From Candidatus Uhrbacteria bacterium (GTDB taxonomy: Bacteria; Patescibacteriota; Patescibacteriia; 2-12-FULL-60-25), in the NCBI GenBank assembly GCA_018499965.2, contig JAHBAS020000029.1:1-33694 (forward strand): a stretch of DNA of 33,694 nt. The letters are read 5' to 3'. Within the stretch, counting starts at the first letter, position 1. Each line of letters starts with the position of its first letter. The position numbers and the translations under genes are program-made. This document shows, one piece after another, positions 6,582-21,561 of the stretch. The notes below the pieces were generated by a model. That model searched no databases. It saw only the letters and a program-made list of their open reading frames with translations, and was not told the DNA's origin.

Positions 6582-6611
6582 TTGACACCTTGGCACTTTA
6601 TTTATTATAGT
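6582..6611 (+). promoter_or_regulatory. Promoter of the hrcA-grpE-hsp20-dnaK operon
   Basis: TTGACA at 6582-6587 is a perfect -35 box. The -10 is either TATTAT (6603-6608, 15-nt spacer) or TATAGT (6606-6611, 18-nt spacer). Transcription would start inside the CIRCE element. Confidence 0.8.
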
Positions 6612-6612
6612 G

Positions 6613-6639
6613 CTAGCACTCTCTCGTATTGAGTGCTAA
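6613..6639 (+). promoter_or_regulatory. CIRCE operator (HrcA binding site)
   Basis: The inverted repeat CTAGCACTC-N9-GAGTGCTAA matches the CIRCE consensus TTAGCACTC-N9-GAGTGCTAA at 17 of 18 positions. It lies directly downstream of the -10 box and ends one base before the hrcA ATG. Bound HrcA would block the promoter, and the hairpin could also cover the translation start. Confidence 0.96.
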
Positions 6640-14689: not shown

Positions 14690-14800
14690 CTCGATCTGTT
14701 TATTGAAATCGCGAGCAATACGGCTTTGTCGATGGAGATAAATTGGTTACGCACATTACAACTCGACGAGTAGATATACTCATTGAAATGAGGCATGTCC

Positions 14801-15592
14801 ATGAATAACGTTCTACGGTTTTCGTGTTTTTCTCTCGTGACGTTCGTCATCGCCATCGGCTGTTCTGGCAGCGATGTTTCGCATGGGAATGATTCAGGCG
14901 GAGATGGTGGCCAGGATTCGCCCTCAGGCACCGGTGGAAAGAGTTCCGCTGGCGGCAAGAGTGCTATTGGCGGATCGAGTTCAACGAATTCGTCCGGTAC
15001 CGGAGGAACGATGACGAATGCTGGAAATACTTCGACTGTTGGTGGCACGCTCGGGATCGGCGGAAGCAGCGGCGGATCCGGAGCAGTAACTGGCGGATCG
15101 AGTAGTCTTGGTGGCTCTTCTTTTGCGAGTGGAGGCACGGGTACCGGAGGACTTCCTTTGCTTCCAATCACCGGCGGATCGAGTTCGATTGCCGGATCTC
15201 CCTCTACGGGTGGAACGACGACTAACCCAGGCGGTATTTGTGCCTATCGTGGTCAGTTTTGTAATGAAACTGGAAATTGTTGCAGTGGCAACTCTTGCGT
15301 CAACCACATATGCGAATCCAATAGCGGTACTGGTGGTACGGGTACGGCGGGTACAAGTAGCGGCGGAATGAGCACGACGGCTGGTACGACAAGTGCAGCC
15401 GGTGGTACGGGATTCGCCGGCTCATCAACGAGCGGCGGAACGACTTCAGCTGGCGGCACGAATGCCTCCGGTGGGACTGTGTCAACTGGCGGCACCACGG
15501 GACTTCCTGCATGTATGCCGAATGGCTATAAGCAATGCAGTCTATACGCGTGTTGCAGCGGGCGTTGCGTGAATGATACTTGTGCCCCATAA
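14801..15592 (+). CDS. Secreted lipoprotein with Gly/Thr/Ser stalk and two knottin-like modules
   Basis: The protein is 263 aa from the ATG at 14801, which is 7 nt after a GAGG; an ATG at 14795 is too close to it. Residues 1-20 are a hydrophobic signal ending AIG before Cys21, a plausible lipobox. Residues 22-145 are a low-complexity Gly/Ser/Thr stalk with GG roughly every 4-9 residues. Then come two six-cysteine modules: C147, C154, C160-C161, C166, C171, and at the very C terminus C238, C246, C251-C252, C256, C261, with a second stalk between them. The C-C-CC-C-C order and spacing equal the inhibitor-cystine-knot pattern (disulfides inferred). The style resembles Gly-rich secreted proteins of myxobacteria. 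Function unknown; surface adhesion or a small-protein effector are possible. It has its own promoter and terminator. Confidence 0.85.
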   Translation: MNNVLRFSCFSLVTFVIAIGCSGSDVSHGNDSGGDGGQDSPSGTGGKSSAGGKSAIGGSSSTNSSGTGGTMTNAGNTSTVGGTLGIGGSSGGSGAVTGGSSSLGGSSFASGGTGTGGLPLLPITGGSSSIAGSPSTGGTTTNPGGICAYRGQFCNETGNCCSGNSCVNHICESNSGTGGTGTAGTSSGGMSTTAGTTSAAGGTGFAGSSTSGGTTSAGGTNASGGTVSTGGTTGLPACMPNGYKQCSLYACCSGRCVNDTCAP

Positions 15593-15686: not shown

Positions 15687-15715
15687 TTGACTTTTGGGGT
15701 ATGTATGTCATCATG
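15687..15715 (+). promoter_or_regulatory. Promoter of the second knottin lipoprotein gene
   Basis: TTGACT (15687-15692) is a good -35. The -10 is poor, near ATCATG (15710-15715) or CATGAA (15712-15717). The predicted transcript begins at about 15722, right at the 40-nt structured element. Confidence 0.5.
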
Positions 15716-15723
15716 AAAATACG

Positions 15724-15763
15724 TCCATCAACGTCGGGTTTTTCCGACGAAGGGGGTGGATGA
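15724..15763 (+). promoter_or_regulatory. 40-nt conserved structured 5' leader element, copy A
   Basis: This stretch is identical to 16682-16721 at 39 of 40 positions, while the DNA on each side is different. It folds as an inner stem CGTCGG/CCGACG with a 6-nt loop (GTTTTT), an unpaired CAA side against AAGGGG, and an outer stem TCCA/TGGA. It lies at the predicted 5' end of the mRNA, about 55 nt before the gene's AAGGAGG and start codon. I do not recognise a known riboswitch. Possible roles: mRNA 5' stabiliser, regulatory RNA element, or operator. Confidence 0.75.
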
Positions 15764-15817
15764 GTATCGCACCTTTGATAAATTACGGGTTTAGAACCTA
15801 GCAAGGAGGCACGTATC

Positions 15818-16474
15818 ATGAAGAAGTATCTCTGTAACCAGATTACGTTTTTGGTCCTTTTGGGACTTTCACCATCATGCTCTCCAGATGAAACCAATGA
15901 TCCTAGCGGTCACGGATCCACAGGAAATGATCCTGCGGCTGAAGGACTTGGTGGAAATGCATCGGGTGGTACGAACTCTGCAGGTGGTGCAGTGCAAACT
16001 GGCGGAAGGAGTGGCTGTGTCGTTGATAATCTGGTTTGCACGGAAAGCGCTCAGTGTTGTTCGGGCTATTGCAATATGGAGAATGGAACGAATGGTTCTT
16101 GTAGGCCTGATCCAGCTGGGATTGGCAATTCTGGCAAGTGCTACGAATACGATAGTAACTGCCTCTTCACGGAAGAGTGTTGTGAAGGATCCTGTACTCT
16201 TGGTTTTTGTTCGAGATACGACGGTTGTCGTATCTTGGGCGCCTCGTGTACGGGTCGTGATGTGTGTTGCGCTGGCCTAGTCTGTCAAAATCGCCTTTGC
16301 GTTTCGGAGGCATCGGTCGCAACTGGCGGAGCTTCTTCGGTTGGCGGTGCAACGGGAACTGGTGGTATGGCGATCACGTGTATACCAGGTGGCCAGTCTT
16401 GTGCCGGGTCGCTTTCGAATGCATGCTGTACAGGGCTGACTTGCGTAAATTCGATTTGTACTTCCGCTACGTAA
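15818..16474 (+). CDS. Secreted lipoprotein with four knottin-like modules
   Basis: This 218-aa protein has a strong Shine-Dalgarno (AAGGAGG, 8 nt upstream). The signal peptide ends LGLSPS before Cys21; the lipobox is slightly off consensus, but the paralogue at 16870 has a perfect LPAC there and the same following SPD. A short Gly/Asn/Ser stalk is followed by four modules: C67-C74-C80-C81-C85-C95, C108-C115-C121-C122-C126-C131, C137-C144-C150-C151-C156-C161, then a TGG-rich spacer and C188-C195-C203-C204-C209-C214. The first loop is always six residues; the spacing fits inhibitor cystine knots, with disulfides inferred. No enzyme domain is present, so binding is the likely activity. It has its own promoter, 5' element and terminator. 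Confidence 0.85.
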   Translation: MKKYLCNQITFLVLLGLSPSCSPDETNDPSGHGSTGNDPAAEGLGGNASGGTNSAGGAVQTGGRSGCVVDNLVCTESAQCCSGYCNMENGTNGSCRPDPAGIGNSGKCYEYDSNCLFTEECCEGSCTLGFCSRYDGCRILGASCTGRDVCCAGLVCQNRLCVSEASVATGGASSVGGATGTGGMAITCIPGGQSCAGSLSNACCTGLTCVNSICTSAT

Positions 16475-16483
16475 GATGCGAGG

Positions 16484-16504
16484 TTAATCCGTGATTGAGC
16501 AGCA
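16484..16504 (+). other. Conserved 3' UTR motif after the second lipoprotein
   Basis: The TTAATCCGTGATTGAGCAGC region here aligns with 18743-18765 after the third lipoprotein gene (AGTAACCCGTGGTTGAACAATC). It lies just before each terminator. Together with the 5' element this shows that the two whole transcription units, not only the coding parts, are paralogous. Confidence 0.55.
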
Positions 16505-16506
16505 AA

Positions 16507-16558
16507 AACGGTGGGGTGATTGGTGCATATGCGCTATATCATTCCACCGTTGATTTTA
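16507..16558 (+). terminator. Intrinsic terminator of the second lipoprotein gene
   Basis: A 14-bp stem (16507-16520 with 16538-16551, two G-U pairs) formed by AACGGTGGGGTGAT and ATCATTCCACCGTT, followed by a T-rich stretch. Confidence 0.82.
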
Positions 16559-16644
16559 TTTCCTGCGCTTTTTAATAAGAGGTATCTGTGCATAGATATT
16601 GATTTTTGGCTAAAATTGGCTTATTTTGCAAAAGACGGCCAGGC

Positions 16645-16673
16645 TTGACATTTTCTTGCATCTGTGTCATGAT
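16645..16673 (+). promoter_or_regulatory. Promoter of the third knottin lipoprotein gene
   Basis: TTGACA (16645-16650), a 17-nt spacer and CATGAT (16668-16673). Transcription would begin near 16680-16681, exactly where the 40-nt element starts. The TTGACATTTT start is shared with the first lipoprotein promoter. Confidence 0.68.
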
Positions 16674-16681
16674 AGTACTTA

Positions 16682-16721
16682 TCCATCAACGTCGGTTTTT
16701 TCCGACGAAGGGGGTGGATGA
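16682..16721 (+). promoter_or_regulatory. 40-nt conserved structured 5' leader element, copy B
   Basis: Copy B differs from copy A (15724-15763) only by T for G in the hairpin loop (six T's here). The inner stem CGTCGG/CCGACG (16690-16695 and 16702-16707) and the outer AUCCA/UGGAU stem (16681-16685 with 16715-16719) are intact, and the AAGGGGG side is invariant. It lies at the predicted +1, with 148 nt between it and the coding start. Confidence 0.75.
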
Positions 16722-16869
16722 CAATCGTCCATTTCGAGCGGGCAAAGAGGCGGCAATGGTGTTGCCTTATTCGCGTACCTCAAACTGTACCTTGGACAAC
16801 TCGGGTTACAACAAGAAAATTATGTGCGGCCATTTCGGTCGCGCAATAGAAATATCCTAGGAGGAAGTC
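16722..16869 (+). other. Long 5' leader of the third lipoprotein gene
   Basis: This completes the 395-nt gap between the second and third lipoprotein genes, which otherwise holds a terminator, a promoter and the 40-nt element. I see no gene in the leader. It contains short self-complementary pieces (for example GGCAA/TTGCC near 16751-16768) and ends in a strong Shine-Dalgarno, AGGAGG at 16859-16864, 5 nt before the ATG. Confidence 0.6.
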
Positions 16870-18723
16870 ATGACGAGCACAAAACGGACGATCAAGAGTC
16901 TGCTCTTCGCGGTTCTCCTTGGGCTTCCGGCGTGTTCGCCGGACGATCCCCAAGAGCCTACCGCGATCCATCACGGATCGATTGGAAACGAACCTGTTGC
17001 CGGTGCCGCTGGCATCGCTGCAGGCGGAACGTCGACGTCTTCCGGTTCAAAGACCGGAGGGTCCTCAAATGCGACTGGTGGCAATACCAGTATCACCGTT
17101 GGCGGAAGTGGAAACACGGACGTCGGCGGAACGAGCTCAGCGAGTGGATCTTCTTCTGTTGGCGGCAACGCTGACGTTGGCGGATCTGCCCCTGTGGGCG
17201 GAGCTTCTTCTTCAACCGGTGGCGCGAGCGCAACTGGTGGGAAGAGTTCAACGACCGGCGGAGCTACGGGAACTGGTGGAAACACCGGAACCGGTGGTGC
17301 CCCAACTGGCGGATCAAGTGTAACGGGAACTGGTGGCGGTGCACTCACGTGTCAGCCACTTGGTCTTAGTTGCTGGCAGAATATCATGTGCTGTTCTGGC
17401 GTATGTCAGAATAATGCATGTGTTGCACCTGGAACTGGTGGAAACACCGGAACCGGTGGTGCCGCAACTGGCGGAGCCTCTTCTTCAACCGGTGGCGCGA
17501 GCGCAACTGGTGGGAAGAGTTCAACGACCGGCGGAGCTACGGGAACTGGTGGAAACACCGGAACCGGTGGTGCCGCAACTGGCGGAACGACTGCCGTGGC
17601 ATGTACGCCTGGACTCACCCCGACCACGGAGACGGCAAAACCGTTTGCGTGTACCGGTGAATTCGTACGCAATACTGCGTTCGACACGATGAACACCGCT
17701 CGGGGCAATGATCTGAGATTCATGGAGGACGTCTGGAAAAAGGATGGCGTAAAGTACGCTGTTGCTAGTACGATTAGCGCGACATACGCTTTTCAGTCCT
17801 CTGGTGCAAACTGGAGTCTGATGAGCGATTTGCCGAGCGATTTCGGGCCCAAGCTCTTCCGTGACATTGAAGGCGACCTCTGCGTTGGTGGACATGCTCC
17901 CAATAGTCTGAACGGTCAAGTGACTGCGCGACTTATCTGTAAAAAGAATGGGACGTGGTCAACTCAGTCTGTTCCGTTCTGTGTAACGGCAGACTGTTCA
18001 GATGCAGGCGTAATCGATGTAAATGTCATTGGGATCTCTTCAGCGGGTCAAACGACGGTTATGCTCGTGACGGCTCTTCATGAAGCGACACGGAATGATG
18101 CTTCTCAAATTTTCCTAAAGAAGCAGGGCGGATCTTGGGCGCGTCAAACGCTCCCCATGACCACCGGTCTGCGACTACAGGGAGTATGGGTTCATTCGGA
18201 CTGTGACGCATATGCCGTGGGGCAATATGGCAACGATGCCGTTGCGCTCCACTACAATGGCTCGACGTGGTCTACGTTAACGACGCCGAGTGGAATTACC
18301 ACTTTTAATTCCGTTCACGGAAATGGGAGTGAAATTTACATCGGTGGAAGCGTACTTGTTGCAGACAATACCTTCAAGGCCGTGACCATTTTGAGTTCAA
18401 ATCTTGTGAATTGGCAAACACAGGAAGGATCAGTGTATGAAAGTGCTGGCACGGCTCTTTCGGCCGTATGGACTCCTCGAATAGGCGCGGCGCTTCTAGG
18501 CGAGAGTCATCTTGTACAGCAGGATGACGCATGTCCGTGGAAGGGTGGATTCGTAAGCGTCTACTCTGGCGGAGTTCAGCAGATCGGCGCATCCATACTC
18601 GGCCATGCAATGCGCGTTCGTAGTCTCTTCGGAGATGTGAATGGTAACGTCATTGCGGGTGCAGATGGAAAGGATGATGCTTGTAACGATGTTGCCGGCG
18701 TATACGAAGCGATGTGTCAGTAG
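16870..18723 (+). CDS. Large secreted lipoprotein: stalk, one knottin-like module, C-terminal beta-propeller-like domain
   Basis: This 617-aa protein begins with a basic N terminus, a hydrophobic core and a perfect lipobox LPAC (Cys22) followed by SPDD, as in the paralogue at 15818. Residues 45-158 are a Gly/Thr/Ser/Ala stalk with repeated TGG units. One six-cysteine module follows (C161, C168, C174-C175, C179, C184), then a second stalk (188-234) that copies part of the first. The C-terminal 380 residues are beta-rich, with repeats such as LQGVWVHSDCDAYAVGQYG and VALHYNGSTWSTL, the pattern of bacterial propeller-type repeats with GVW, AVG and W positions; several cysteines there may pair. 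I infer a tethered binding domain on a flexible stalk. The strong Shine-Dalgarno and long leader set it apart from most neighbours. Confidence 0.85.
   Translation: MTSTKRTIKSLLFAVLLGLPACSPDDPQEPTAIHHGSIGNEPVAGAAGIAAGGTSTSSGSKTGGSSNATGGNTSITVGGSGNTDVGGTSSASGSSSVGGNADVGGSAPVGGASSSTGGASATGGKSSTTGGATGTGGNTGTGGAPTGGSSVTGTGGGALTCQPLGLSCWQNIMCCSGVCQNNACVAPGTGGNTGTGGAATGGASSSTGGASATGGKSSTTGGATGTGGNTGTGGAATGGTTAVACTPGLTPTTETAKPFACTGEFVRNTAFDTMNTARGNDLRFMEDVWKKDGVKYAVASTISATYAFQSSGANWSLMSDLPSDFGPKLFRDIEGDLCVGGHAPNSLNGQVTARLICKKNGTWSTQSVPFCVTADCSDAGVIDVNVIGISSAGQTTVMLVTALHEATRNDASQIFLKKQGGSWARQTLPMTTGLRLQGVWVHSDCDAYAVGQYGNDAVALHYNGSTWSTLTTPSGITTFNSVHGNGSEIYIGGSVLVADNTFKAVTILSSNLVNWQTQEGSVYESAGTALSAVWTPRIGAALLGESHLVQQDDACPWKGGFVSVYSGGVQQIGASILGHAMRVRSLFGDVNGNVIAGADGKDDACNDVAGVYEAMCQ
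17197..17586 (+). repeat. Near-perfect internal duplication of stalk DNA
   Basis: 17197-17313 and 17470-17586 (117 bp each, offset 273 bp) differ at only two bases, by direct comparison. A 45-bp block starting GGAACTGGTGGAAACACC occurs three times (about 17269, 17430 and 17541); the last two are 111 bp apart as a tandem unit. The knottin module lies between the stalk copies. All offsets are multiples of three, so the frame is kept. Confidence 0.9.
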
Positions 18724-18839: not shown

Positions 18840-18871
18840 TTGACGCGTTTTTTACATGAGTGTGTTATAAT
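18840..18871 (+). promoter_or_regulatory. Promoter of the S74 surface-fibre gene
   Basis: An extended -10, TGT-TATAAT (18863-18871), lies 11 nt before the ATG at 18883. TTGACG at 18840-18845 is a possible -35, but its 20-nt spacer is long. The predicted leader is only about 4 nt. Confidence 0.65.
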
Positions 18872-18882
18872 TGTTTCAAACT

Positions 18883-21561
18883 ATGAATACGCGCAAATTT
18901 TCTATCTTCGCGGCAATCGCTGTTATTGCATTGCCGATCGCTGCATGGGCTGCTTATACCGCGCCTACAGGAGCTCCGACAACAGGGAATCCTCCGGGAC
19001 CGATTTGGCTTACGCCGTCGTCCGCACAGACTGGTACGATAAGATTGAATGGAGATTTTTATATTTCGACTGGCAAAGCGATTCAGGTGCCTCTTGCGAG
19101 CTATGGAAGTGTATTAAATATCGGCAACTGGGAAACCGGTTCAACCGGAACGAATGCCATGGTGTATGGAGATATTTACGCCAAGGGATACAGTGCAACT
19201 GCGAACAGGGGTCGTGTTAATACATATGAACTCTGTCTAAACAACGGAGCGACTCCGGCGACGGATTGTAAGACCGCCTGGCCAGCCGGTGGAACGATGG
19301 GTGGATCTGGAACGGCCAATTATCTTCCGTTGTTTTCAGCGGGAACGACGCTTGGAAACTCGACGTTGTATCAGAGCGGTACGAACGTTGGATTGGGGAC
19401 AACGGGTCCAAATGGACGATTCACCATTTCGAATAACGTCGCAACCGGTTTTCTTGATACGTATCCTGAATACCAGATCATGTTATATGACGGAGGAACG
19501 GGTCCAGCCTCATACGGATTGGGCGTTAAGGGTAATACCATGGTTTTTAATAGCGGTGCAGGAGCGTACAGCTTTGATCGAGCAGGAGGAGCGACTTCGA
19601 TGGCGCTCGATACGGCTGGCAATGTCTCGATAAGCGGAGTGGCAACTGTTGCAGGTGGTATCGCTGCTAATAGATTTAGTAGCGTCGGAACCTTTTCTGG
19701 GTTTGCCAACACGTTTAAGGTATACGACATTCTTTCAGCGACGGATGCGCCAACAGCGGATTCTTGGCATAGGGTTCTTGCGATGCCAAGCTCGGATTCG
19801 AACTATCCTAGCGCTATCGTCGGAACGATGACGAATAACCAGGCGAAGCTTTTCTATCAAAGCAAGGAATCTGCTTGGTCAAGCGGTTGGAAAGAATTTA
19901 TCTTGGCTAATTCGGCCGGAAATGTCGGTATTGGAACAACGGCTCCAGCTTATAAAGTTGATGTAAACGGTGATGTTATTGCGAACTGGGTACGTACGCG
20001 TGGCGCAACGGGTTGGTACAATGAAACGTATGCTGGTGGTTGGTATATGAGTGATCCGTCTTGGATTCGTTCATATAATGCAAAAAACGTGTGGACCAGT
20101 ACCGGATTACTTGGATCGGATGGTGGTTTAACCATTGGGTACGGTGGCGCTACGCCTCCGCAGCCAACCGGGCAGGCTGGTGCGATTATCGCAGGTACAG
20201 TGGGTATCGGAACATCAAATCCAACGAATGGCCGACTTGACGTTCGATCGACTGGCGGAGATGCAGTATATGGATATACACCAGGCGGAACTGGTGTTCG
20301 AGGTATCGCCGCTTCTGGTTGGGGTGTGTACGGCATTGCTCAGAGCTCTGGGGATGGTGTTCATGGAGAAAACCAGAGTTCGGGAGGTAATGGCGTTTAT
20401 GGTCAAGCGACAGGTGCGAGTGCAGCGAACTCCAACGGCGTGAGAGGGGATACGGTTGCTCCGAATGGTTCGGGTGTATACGGATATGCAAATGCCGCCG
20501 GTGCTTACGGTGTCTGGGGAAATAATCCTGCAGGAAATGGCGTACGAGGAACTTCAGCTCATTATTCGTACGCGGGCGTGTATGGTGACAATACTTCCGG
20601 CTCCGGTCCTGGAGTGCGCGGCGTGAATACGAACGGCGGTGGCATGGGAGTCGAGGGTGTAGGTACTATGTATGGAGTATACGGTTCATCTGATGGTTTT
20701 GGTGTGTATGGTTATAGCGCCGGTGGGCGTGGCGTCTATGGAAGTGGAGGCACGTACGGTGTTCAGGCGAGTAGTAACTATGCGGGTATCTATTCTTATG
20801 GAAATAGTTACAGTTTTTACGGCGGCGGTGGGGAATTGTATAACGCCGGATTGATTCGAGGCGCGGTAAACGGCGGAGCATATTTCTGCGGAGGCGATGA
20901 TGCTTGTTTATATGATGTCAACCAGGCGAATATGGTGGGTATCTATGGCGCGCAGGATAGTACTCGAGGCGCGGTTCGTTTAGGATCGAATGGTGGTACG
21001 CTTTACGGATTCTCCGGAAGAATCGGTATTGGAACTTCAAATCCAGCGACCGCCTTGTCACTTTATAGTGGCTCTGAGGTGTATACCCAAACCTGGTTGC
21101 AGCAAAATGATGCTAACTGTGGTTATGCGGCAACCGCATGGACAGACGGAAACTTCTACCTTAATCGATGGTGCGGCGGACCTTCTGCAAGCGCATACAT
21201 GACTGCTGCCGGAGCTTGGGTTCAATATTCCGATCGTGACTTGAAGGAAGATATCAAGGTCTTGAGCTACGGAATTGACGATGTGATGAAGTTGAAGCCG
21301 GTGACCTATACTCGCAAGGATGATAAGGAAAATAAGGAGCTTATCGGCTTTATCGCTCAAGATGTTCAGAAGGTGATTCCTGAGTTGGTGAGCGGTAAGG
21401 CGATTAGCGAAGGGGGTACGGGTCTTGGCTTGAATTATCAGAACATGACAGCGGTACTCACGAGTGCCATCCAGGATCAGCAGAAGGAGATCGAAGCGTT
21501 AAAAGCGCAGAACGGCGATCTTCTCAAGCGTCTCGAAGCTATTGAAGCGAAGTTGAAATAA
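18883..21561 (+). CDS. Secreted surface fibre with C-terminal Peptidase_S74 (intramolecular chaperone) domain
   Basis: This 892-aa protein has a cleavable signal peptide (hydrophobic residues 7-22, AWA-AYT cleavage site). Four copies of the tail-fibre motif GIGTxxP or GLGTTGP occur through the shaft. Residues about 457-650 are a dense run of GVYG, GVRG and GVHG repeats every 10-15 residues, as in trimeric beta-helical fibres. The C terminus is an S74 domain starting at S783 (SDRDLKEDIKVL), continuing GIDDVMKLKPVTYTRK and LIGFIAQDVQKVIPELV, and ending in a coiled coil. In phage fibres this domain trimerises the shaft and then cuts itself off just before that serine; the same is inferred here. 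The likely role is a host- or surface-binding fibre. The ATG at 18883 is chosen for the signal peptide and promoter spacing. Confidence 0.88.
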   Translation: MNTRKFSIFAAIAVIALPIAAWAAYTAPTGAPTTGNPPGPIWLTPSSAQTGTIRLNGDFYISTGKAIQVPLASYGSVLNIGNWETGSTGTNAMVYGDIYAKGYSATANRGRVNTYELCLNNGATPATDCKTAWPAGGTMGGSGTANYLPLFSAGTTLGNSTLYQSGTNVGLGTTGPNGRFTISNNVATGFLDTYPEYQIMLYDGGTGPASYGLGVKGNTMVFNSGAGAYSFDRAGGATSMALDTAGNVSISGVATVAGGIAANRFSSVGTFSGFANTFKVYDILSATDAPTADSWHRVLAMPSSDSNYPSAIVGTMTNNQAKLFYQSKESAWSSGWKEFILANSAGNVGIGTTAPAYKVDVNGDVIANWVRTRGATGWYNETYAGGWYMSDPSWIRSYNAKNVWTSTGLLGSDGGLTIGYGGATPPQPTGQAGAIIAGTVGIGTSNPTNGRLDVRSTGGDAVYGYTPGGTGVRGIAASGWGVYGIAQSSGDGVHGENQSSGGNGVYGQATGASAANSNGVRGDTVAPNGSGVYGYANAAGAYGVWGNNPAGNGVRGTSAHYSYAGVYGDNTSGSGPGVRGVNTNGGGMGVEGVGTMYGVYGSSDGFGVYGYSAGGRGVYGSGGTYGVQASSNYAGIYSYGNSYSFYGGGGELYNAGLIRGAVNGGAYFCGGDDACLYDVNQANMVGIYGAQDSTRGAVRLGSNGGTLYGFSGRIGIGTSNPATALSLYSGSEVYTQTWLQQNDANCGYAATAWTDGNFYLNRWCGGPSASAYMTAAGAWVQYSDRDLKEDIKVLSYGIDDVMKLKPVTYTRKDDKENKELIGFIAQDVQKVIPELVSGKAISEGGTGLGLNYQNMTAVLTSAIQDQQKEIEALKAQNGDLLKRLEAIEAKLK

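Follow-up and report, generated by a model that had tools for sequence, protein, structure and literature searches.

A duplicated 40-nt 5' stem-loop on paralogous lipoprotein messages of a reduced-genome bacterium: a candidate mRNA stabilizer

RNase J degrades RNA in the 5' to 3' direction and is hindered both by structure at the 5' end and by bound ribosomes. Stem-loops that stabilize messages from their 5' ends and STAB-SD sites are each already known, and the precedents, the ompA and papA 5' stem-loops and STAB-SD, are listed or discussed in earlier work (PMC3997798, PMC7509114). Here we describe a 40-nt element of Candidatus Uhrbacteria in which the two appear to be combined. As far as a limited literature search of partial coverage shows, it is the union of both in one 40-nt module, duplicated on paralogous lipoproteins, that is new, together with the finding that, in a genus of reduced genomes, 5' hairpins of unrelated sequence favour lipoprotein leaders; the same search returned nothing on such control of lipoprotein messages in reduced-genome bacteria.

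The window, the whole 33,694-nt stretch of DNA that was analysed (contig JAHBAS020000029.1), holds three predicted lipoprotein genes in tandem, of which the second and third are preceded by the element (Table 1). A preliminary description of this DNA had given the coordinates and the near-identity of the two copies correctly, and had rightly placed their only difference in the hairpin loop, where it is a G/T mismatch at element position 15. Its inner stem, CGTCGG/CCGACG, also stands, but the outer stem, described as the four base pairs TCCA/TGGA, had been understated and comprises at least 6 bp, TCCATC/GGTGGA, with one G-U pair. Folded alone over 50 nt, both copies adopt one common two-stem structure (-21.1 kcal/mol for copy 1, -20.1 kcal/mol for copy 2; z about -3.9). 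As there are only two copies, in which the twelve pairs never vary, the pairs provide no independent evidence for RNA pairing and no covariation support.

Table 1. Positions in the window of the lipoprotein genes, their predicted promoters and the two copies of the element
Feature	Position	Strand	Details
Gene 1 of the cluster, lipoprotein	14795-15592	+	TTTGACATTTT-type promoter; without the element; weaker 5' hairpin only, z = -1.4
Predicted promoter, gene 2	15687-15714	+	TTGACT-16-CATCAT, TG before second hexamer; 9/12
Element, copy 1	15724-15763	+	39/40 identical to copy 2; fold z = -3.98
Copy 1, outer stem	15724-15729/15755-15760		
Copy 1, inner stem	15732-15737/15744-15749		
Copy 1, apical loop	15738-15743		GTTTTT; internal loop AA/AAGGG
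SD-like stretch, copy 1	15750-15758	+	AAGGGGGTG; 9 pairs with assumed anti-SD CACCUCCUU
Candidate leader ORF, copy 1	15760-15801	+	MSIAPLINYGFRT-stop, 13 codons; ends 16 nt before lipoprotein ATG; not conserved in copy 2
SD, gene 2	15803-15809		AAGGAGG
Gene 2, predicted lipoprotein	15818-16474	+	218 aa; downstream of copy 1; lipobox around LSPSC; Gly/Thr/Ser-rich, Cys-rich modules
Predicted promoter, gene 3	16645-16673	+	TTGACA-17-CATGAT, TG before second hexamer; 10/12
Element, copy 2	16682-16721	+	39/40 match to copy 1; fold z = -3.87
Copy 2, outer stem	16682-16687/16713-16718		
Copy 2, inner stem	16690-16695/16702-16707		
SD-like stretch, copy 2	16708-16716	+	AAGGGGGTG; same anti-SD complementarity
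Candidate leader ORF, copy 2	16718-16849	+	43 codons, same ATG; ends 20 nt before lipoprotein ATG
SD, gene 3	16859-16864		AGGAGG
Gene 3, predicted lipoprotein	16870-18723	+	617 aa; downstream of copy 2; lipobox around LPAC; gene 2 paralogue

The DNA around the two copies had been called unrelated. This is true of the immediate flanks, where in-register identity is at chance level (10/40 directly upstream and 12/40 directly downstream, against 39/40 in the element), but not of the genes, which N-terminal protein alignment (LLGL.P.CSPD...HGS.GN.P) reveals as paralogues whose DNA similarity is down to one short stretch; neither lipoprotein has a match in Pfam or NCBIfam. It could be argued, since the genes are tandem paralogues and the element pair is private to this genome, that the element has no selected function, being either a remnant of the tandem duplication that recent gene conversion has homogenized or the product of two insertions of a small mobile hairpin. 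Such an origin is improbable, however, as coding and promoter DNA retain little more than chance similarity, yet the identity stops exactly at the structural boundaries, and a 40-nt conversion tract confined to a hairpin is unlikely; a mobile hairpin of the REP or MITE kind would be expected elsewhere, whereas there are only two copies, at the same distance from the promoters of paralogues. The element is a conserved island inside an otherwise diverged duplicated promoter-leader region, and we infer that selection accounts better for an island bounded by structure than does conversion or insertion. Right after the lipoprotein cluster, at 18871-21561, the window encodes an 896-aa phage-tail-fibre-like protein that ends in a Peptidase_S74 (endosialidase chaperone) domain.

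Both copies lie at exactly 37 nt, start to start, from a TTGAC -35 hexamer, and the second, -10-like hexamers end 8-9 nt upstream of the stable stem-loop. The earlier proposal that the element begins where transcription starts is therefore reasonable, the start site being predicted from promoter consensus only. The fixed distance to both promoters would also suit a DNA operator, in which the dyad CGTCGG-N6-CCGACG just past +1 is the site of a transcription factor co-regulating the two genes, and the high conservation, which includes unpaired bases, and the restriction to two genomic sites are in keeping with such a role. It should be emphasized, however, that the conserved block is asymmetric (AA versus AAGGG, and a G-U pair in the outer stem) and reaches beyond the dyad, while the hairpins of unrelated sequence that relatives carry at the same place (see below) point to RNA; an operator thus seems quite improbable. 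Elsewhere in the window, CTAGCACTC-N9-GAGTGCTAA at 6613-6639 forms a near-perfect CIRCE (HrcA operator) site right after a TTGACA-TATAGT promoter (6582-6611).

The 1.11-Mb assembly contains two copies only, genome sizes across the class being 0.7-1.6 Mb, and a 38-nt pattern allowing three mismatches matched exactly these two places, with 0.00 matches expected from shuffles. The preliminary description had proposed a covariance-model search seeded with both copies. In the other 40 genomes of the family this returned nothing acceptable (one 20-nt partial match, E 0.15), and in 381 sampled genomes of the class it gave three weak matches only (L052-L054, E 0.02-0.05), none convincing on inspection. 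IMG/VR yielded no homologue, and a relaxed pattern with the inner hairpin left free found three chance matches in GTDB contigs, all in unrelated bacteria. Of the BLAST matches that were inspected, L021 was dismissed as a homologue of the element as it sits within a coding region. No Rfam family matches the element, the only Rfam match being a chance-level sX6 elsewhere, which bears out the view that no known riboswitch class fits. Between the two copies unpaired positions are conserved as much as paired ones, and this would favour a small riboswitch, or an RNA that binds a protein, responding to some signal for the expression of surface proteins. The lack of any match in Rfam or homologue in the family, class, viral and GTDB collections argues against such a sensor, as does the lack of a terminator that could serve as expression platform, and a metabolite sensor would not be expected to occur as a single pair of paralogous copies confined to one genome. 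With no homologue outside the genome, no compensatory change within the element and weak alternative pairing (see below), the signal sensing suggested in the preliminary description finds no support, and we regard it as highly improbable.

The 3' side of the element resembles a ribosome-binding site. The stretch AAGGGGGUG would form nine pairs with the anti-SD at -15.3 kcal/mol, compared with -12.7 for the best of the 206 leaders surveyed below and with -11.8 and -12.5 for the main SDs of genes 2 and 3, which are weaker; the anti-SD was assumed to be standard, and the genes' own SDs (AAGGAGG and AGGAGG) agree with this. AAGGGGGUG lies 59-153 nt upstream of the lipoprotein ATGs, apart from the genes' own SDs, and in both copies an ATG, located on the 3' arm of the outer stem, follows after 3 nt (counted from AAGGGGG). 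Folding of the leader leaves AAG(GG) largely unpaired, whereas GGUGGA takes part in pairing. Other lipoprotein leaders are not clearly enriched in the SD-like motif (p = 0.07).

It could be argued that the element acts in translational control, the hairpin sequestering the SD-like AAGGGGGTG and the ATG of a short leader ORF. Opening of the stem by temperature, a protein or the 30S subunit would then allow translation of the leader ORF, which would be coupled to, or would open, the lipoprotein start; in a two-state version, the 5' arm and downstream RNA would compete for pairing with the G-rich arm. In both copies the frame from this ATG ends shortly before the lipoprotein start (by 16 and 20 nt), the probability of the outer stem within full-length leaders is only 0.6-0.7, and an alternative downstream hairpin is favourable in both copies despite their differing sequence. 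The signal for this alternative pairing, however, is not significant (p 0.10 and 0.08 by shuffling, per copy), and a switch by pairing with the downstream segment was not retained. The SD-ATG spacing is short. A conserved leader peptide was likewise rejected, as the peptides of copies 1 and 2 are unrelated and the analogous frame of a tandem lipoprotein pair in a relative (G002, see below) shows mostly non-synonymous changes together with a frameshift, and an intrinsic attenuator was rejected as there is no terminator-like site. Translational control by the hairpin is thus rather unlikely.

In each of the four congeneric genomes (G000, the genome of the window, and its relatives G001-G003) a match to RNase J exceeded the cut-off, so that the host has a 5'-end-dependent mRNase, while a search with positive controls found RNase E/G to be absent from all four. 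The reading we prefer, to which we give about an even chance (0.5), is that the element is a 5'-terminal stem-loop and ribosome-binding mRNA stabilizer of the ompA/aprE/STAB-SD type. We infer where transcription starts, that the element stabilizes, that ribosomes bind it and that RNase J is involved, as follows. To judge from promoter spacing, transcription would start no more than a few nucleotides from the element, and the two-stem hairpin would hold the nascent 5' end, so that RNase J could not easily begin there. On the 3' side, the purines of the strong SD-like stretch AAGGGGGUG could recruit a 30S subunit; with the next ATG only 3 nt away and half of the stretch sequestered in the outer stem, the site should be better suited to binding than to efficient translation. 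A 30S subunit bound there would form a further obstacle to decay, translation of the lipoprotein would be driven by the downstream SD and ATG, and the element would set the lifetime of the two messages. In favour of this reading are the 39/40 conservation between flanks at chance level and in register with the promoter, the strong fold, the hairpin bias of lipoprotein leaders and the separate leader shared by a G002 pair (both below), the RNase complement and the anti-SD match. Against it, conservation of nearly every base, unpaired ones included, exceeds what a generic stabilizing hairpin needs, the outer stem has a probability of only 0.6-0.7 within full-length leaders, the SD-like motif shows no clear enrichment in other lipoprotein leaders, and 39 of 187 other leaders likewise have a hairpin at the predicted 5' end.

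In G000, G001 and G003 the gene for RNase J too appears to have a structured leader. A strong 5' stem-loop comes after the promoter immediately upstream of the gene in the genome of the window (L056/L218, G000:C3, promoter at 15221-15249, minus strand; z -4.2) and in G003 (L208, G003:C3:390559; z -3.4), and the G001 leader (L150, G001:C19:22117) has a long hairpin, GATGATCCCGTTC...GAACGGGTCATC, visible by eye. RNase E is known for an autoregulatory leader, and by analogy the RNase J stem-loop is possibly one too. In G002 an identical 29-nt promoter, TTGACAATTTCCCCATACTCCCCTATACT, is found at C7:18283-18311 and C24:49-77, one of them upstream of RNase J; the doubling is either a repeat or an assembly duplicate.

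The three relatives' lipoprotein homologues contain no sequence similar to the element, but several begin with a different hairpin at the corresponding place. A G003 homologue has the 5' hairpin ATCTGCC...GGGCAGGT, and a tandem pair in G002 (L047 4791 and 6415) has a common two-stem 5' leader, TTGTCC...GGACAA, that is unrelated to the window element. The preliminary description had taken homologous genes without the element as grounds for refutation; such genes are found as regards sequence, but not as regards the presence of a 5' hairpin. The G002 pair (G002:C23, L047 4648-4790 and 6270-6414) shares promoter and leader, and also has a hairpin, TGTGTG...CACACA, just before the SD.

This pattern was surveyed in 206 leaders downstream of TTGACA-N16-18-TANNNT promoters in the four genomes, using promoter-centred stretches; in the genome of the window the promoter pattern gave 69 matches, against 10 with a reversed control. 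A 5' hairpin was scored at -9 kcal/mol or better when it started no more than 7 nt from the predicted start. Lipoproteins were called with PROSITE PS00013, which takes in a few doubtful calls (L081, L151) and replaced a first lipobox rule (p = 3e-5) that missed the obvious lipoproteins L242 and L250. The two window copies are left out of the counts because their promoters differ from the survey pattern. A 5' hairpin is present on 13 of 19 predicted lipoprotein leaders and on 39 of 187 others (Fisher 3.7e-5). The association was first noticed in the genome of the window, so that the three relatives form the test set, and in these alone the counts are 10/15 and 27/132 (p 4e-4), although G001 and G003 tested singly give no significant association. 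Shuffle z scores agree, with medians of -1.7 for lipoprotein and -0.3 for other leaders (p 2e-4 overall; p 0.005 in the relatives), and the two kinds of leader are alike in G+C content. At 65 nt further downstream there is no lipoprotein hairpin signal in the pooled leaders (p 0.78; G002 alone, p 0.03). The 5' hairpin is not lipoprotein-specific, as the 39 other leaders demonstrate. The proposed tie between an mRNA 5' structure and surface lipoproteins is supported by the hairpins of the four genomes, though their sequences differ, and the expected association with secreted proteins extends to lipoproteins but not to other membrane or exported proteins, which show no 5' hairpin bias (p 0.85).

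Another lipoprotein leader of the window's genome (G000:C14, L048 7491-7540) has the hairpin CGAGTTGCT...AGCAACTCG followed by GGGGGTGGAGGATGTAG, which recalls the G-rich arm of the element and includes the start-stop ATGTAG. A hairpin GACTCGTTC[loop]GAACGGGTC comes right after the promoter of a gene with a NusA-like start (L078, G000:C15:12921-12949, minus strand; L125, G001:C4:7933, plus strand); it is conserved in two species, with differing loops.

That relatives have different hairpins at the same place suggests a widespread protecting or tuning of lipoprotein messages rather than a new sensor. Tentatively, and with clearly less than even confidence, we propose that in a reduced-genome lineage that has RNase J but lacks RNase E/G, lipoprotein messages are systematically capped by 5' hairpins conserved in position and not in sequence, the present genome having fixed one hairpin together with a half-occluded ribosome-recruiting site. 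Were this so, surface-protein dosage would be set through the survival of the mRNA, governed from its 5' end, and a pattern that held across the genus would offer a simple rule, open to test, for how reduced-genome bacteria control their surface proteins post-transcriptionally. Leader structure that is conserved in position but free in sequence can escape covariance-model searches, so that the present element looks orphan although its role may be common.

Several characterized systems resemble the element in part. Like leader-peptide and SD-sequestering attenuators, it has a hairpin that covers an ATG as well as an SD-like motif, and a short ORF that stops just ahead of the gene, but its peptides are not conserved and it has no alternative terminator. 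With the ompA and papA stabilizers of E. coli it shares a stable stem-loop at the extreme 5' end, here predicted, of a surface-protein mRNA with a separate SD downstream; those, however, act against RNase E/RppH, whereas the present host has RNase J and no RNase E/G, and the sequences are unrelated. In Bacillus subtilis, likewise an organism with RNase J, the aprE leader of an exported protein's message joins a 5' stem-loop to ribosome binding, as the element is predicted to do. The ribosome-binding part of aprE is the gene's own RBS; the element, in contrast, has an additional SD-like stretch within its stem-loop, and the leader begins 94-188 nt upstream of the gene. STAB-SD, of cry3 and other Bacillus leaders, is likewise an SD-like run of purines that lies close to the 5' end of the mRNA and does not serve to translate the gene. 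It is described as single-stranded and outside any conserved stem-loop, whereas about half of the SD-like stretch of the element is paired in the outer stem.
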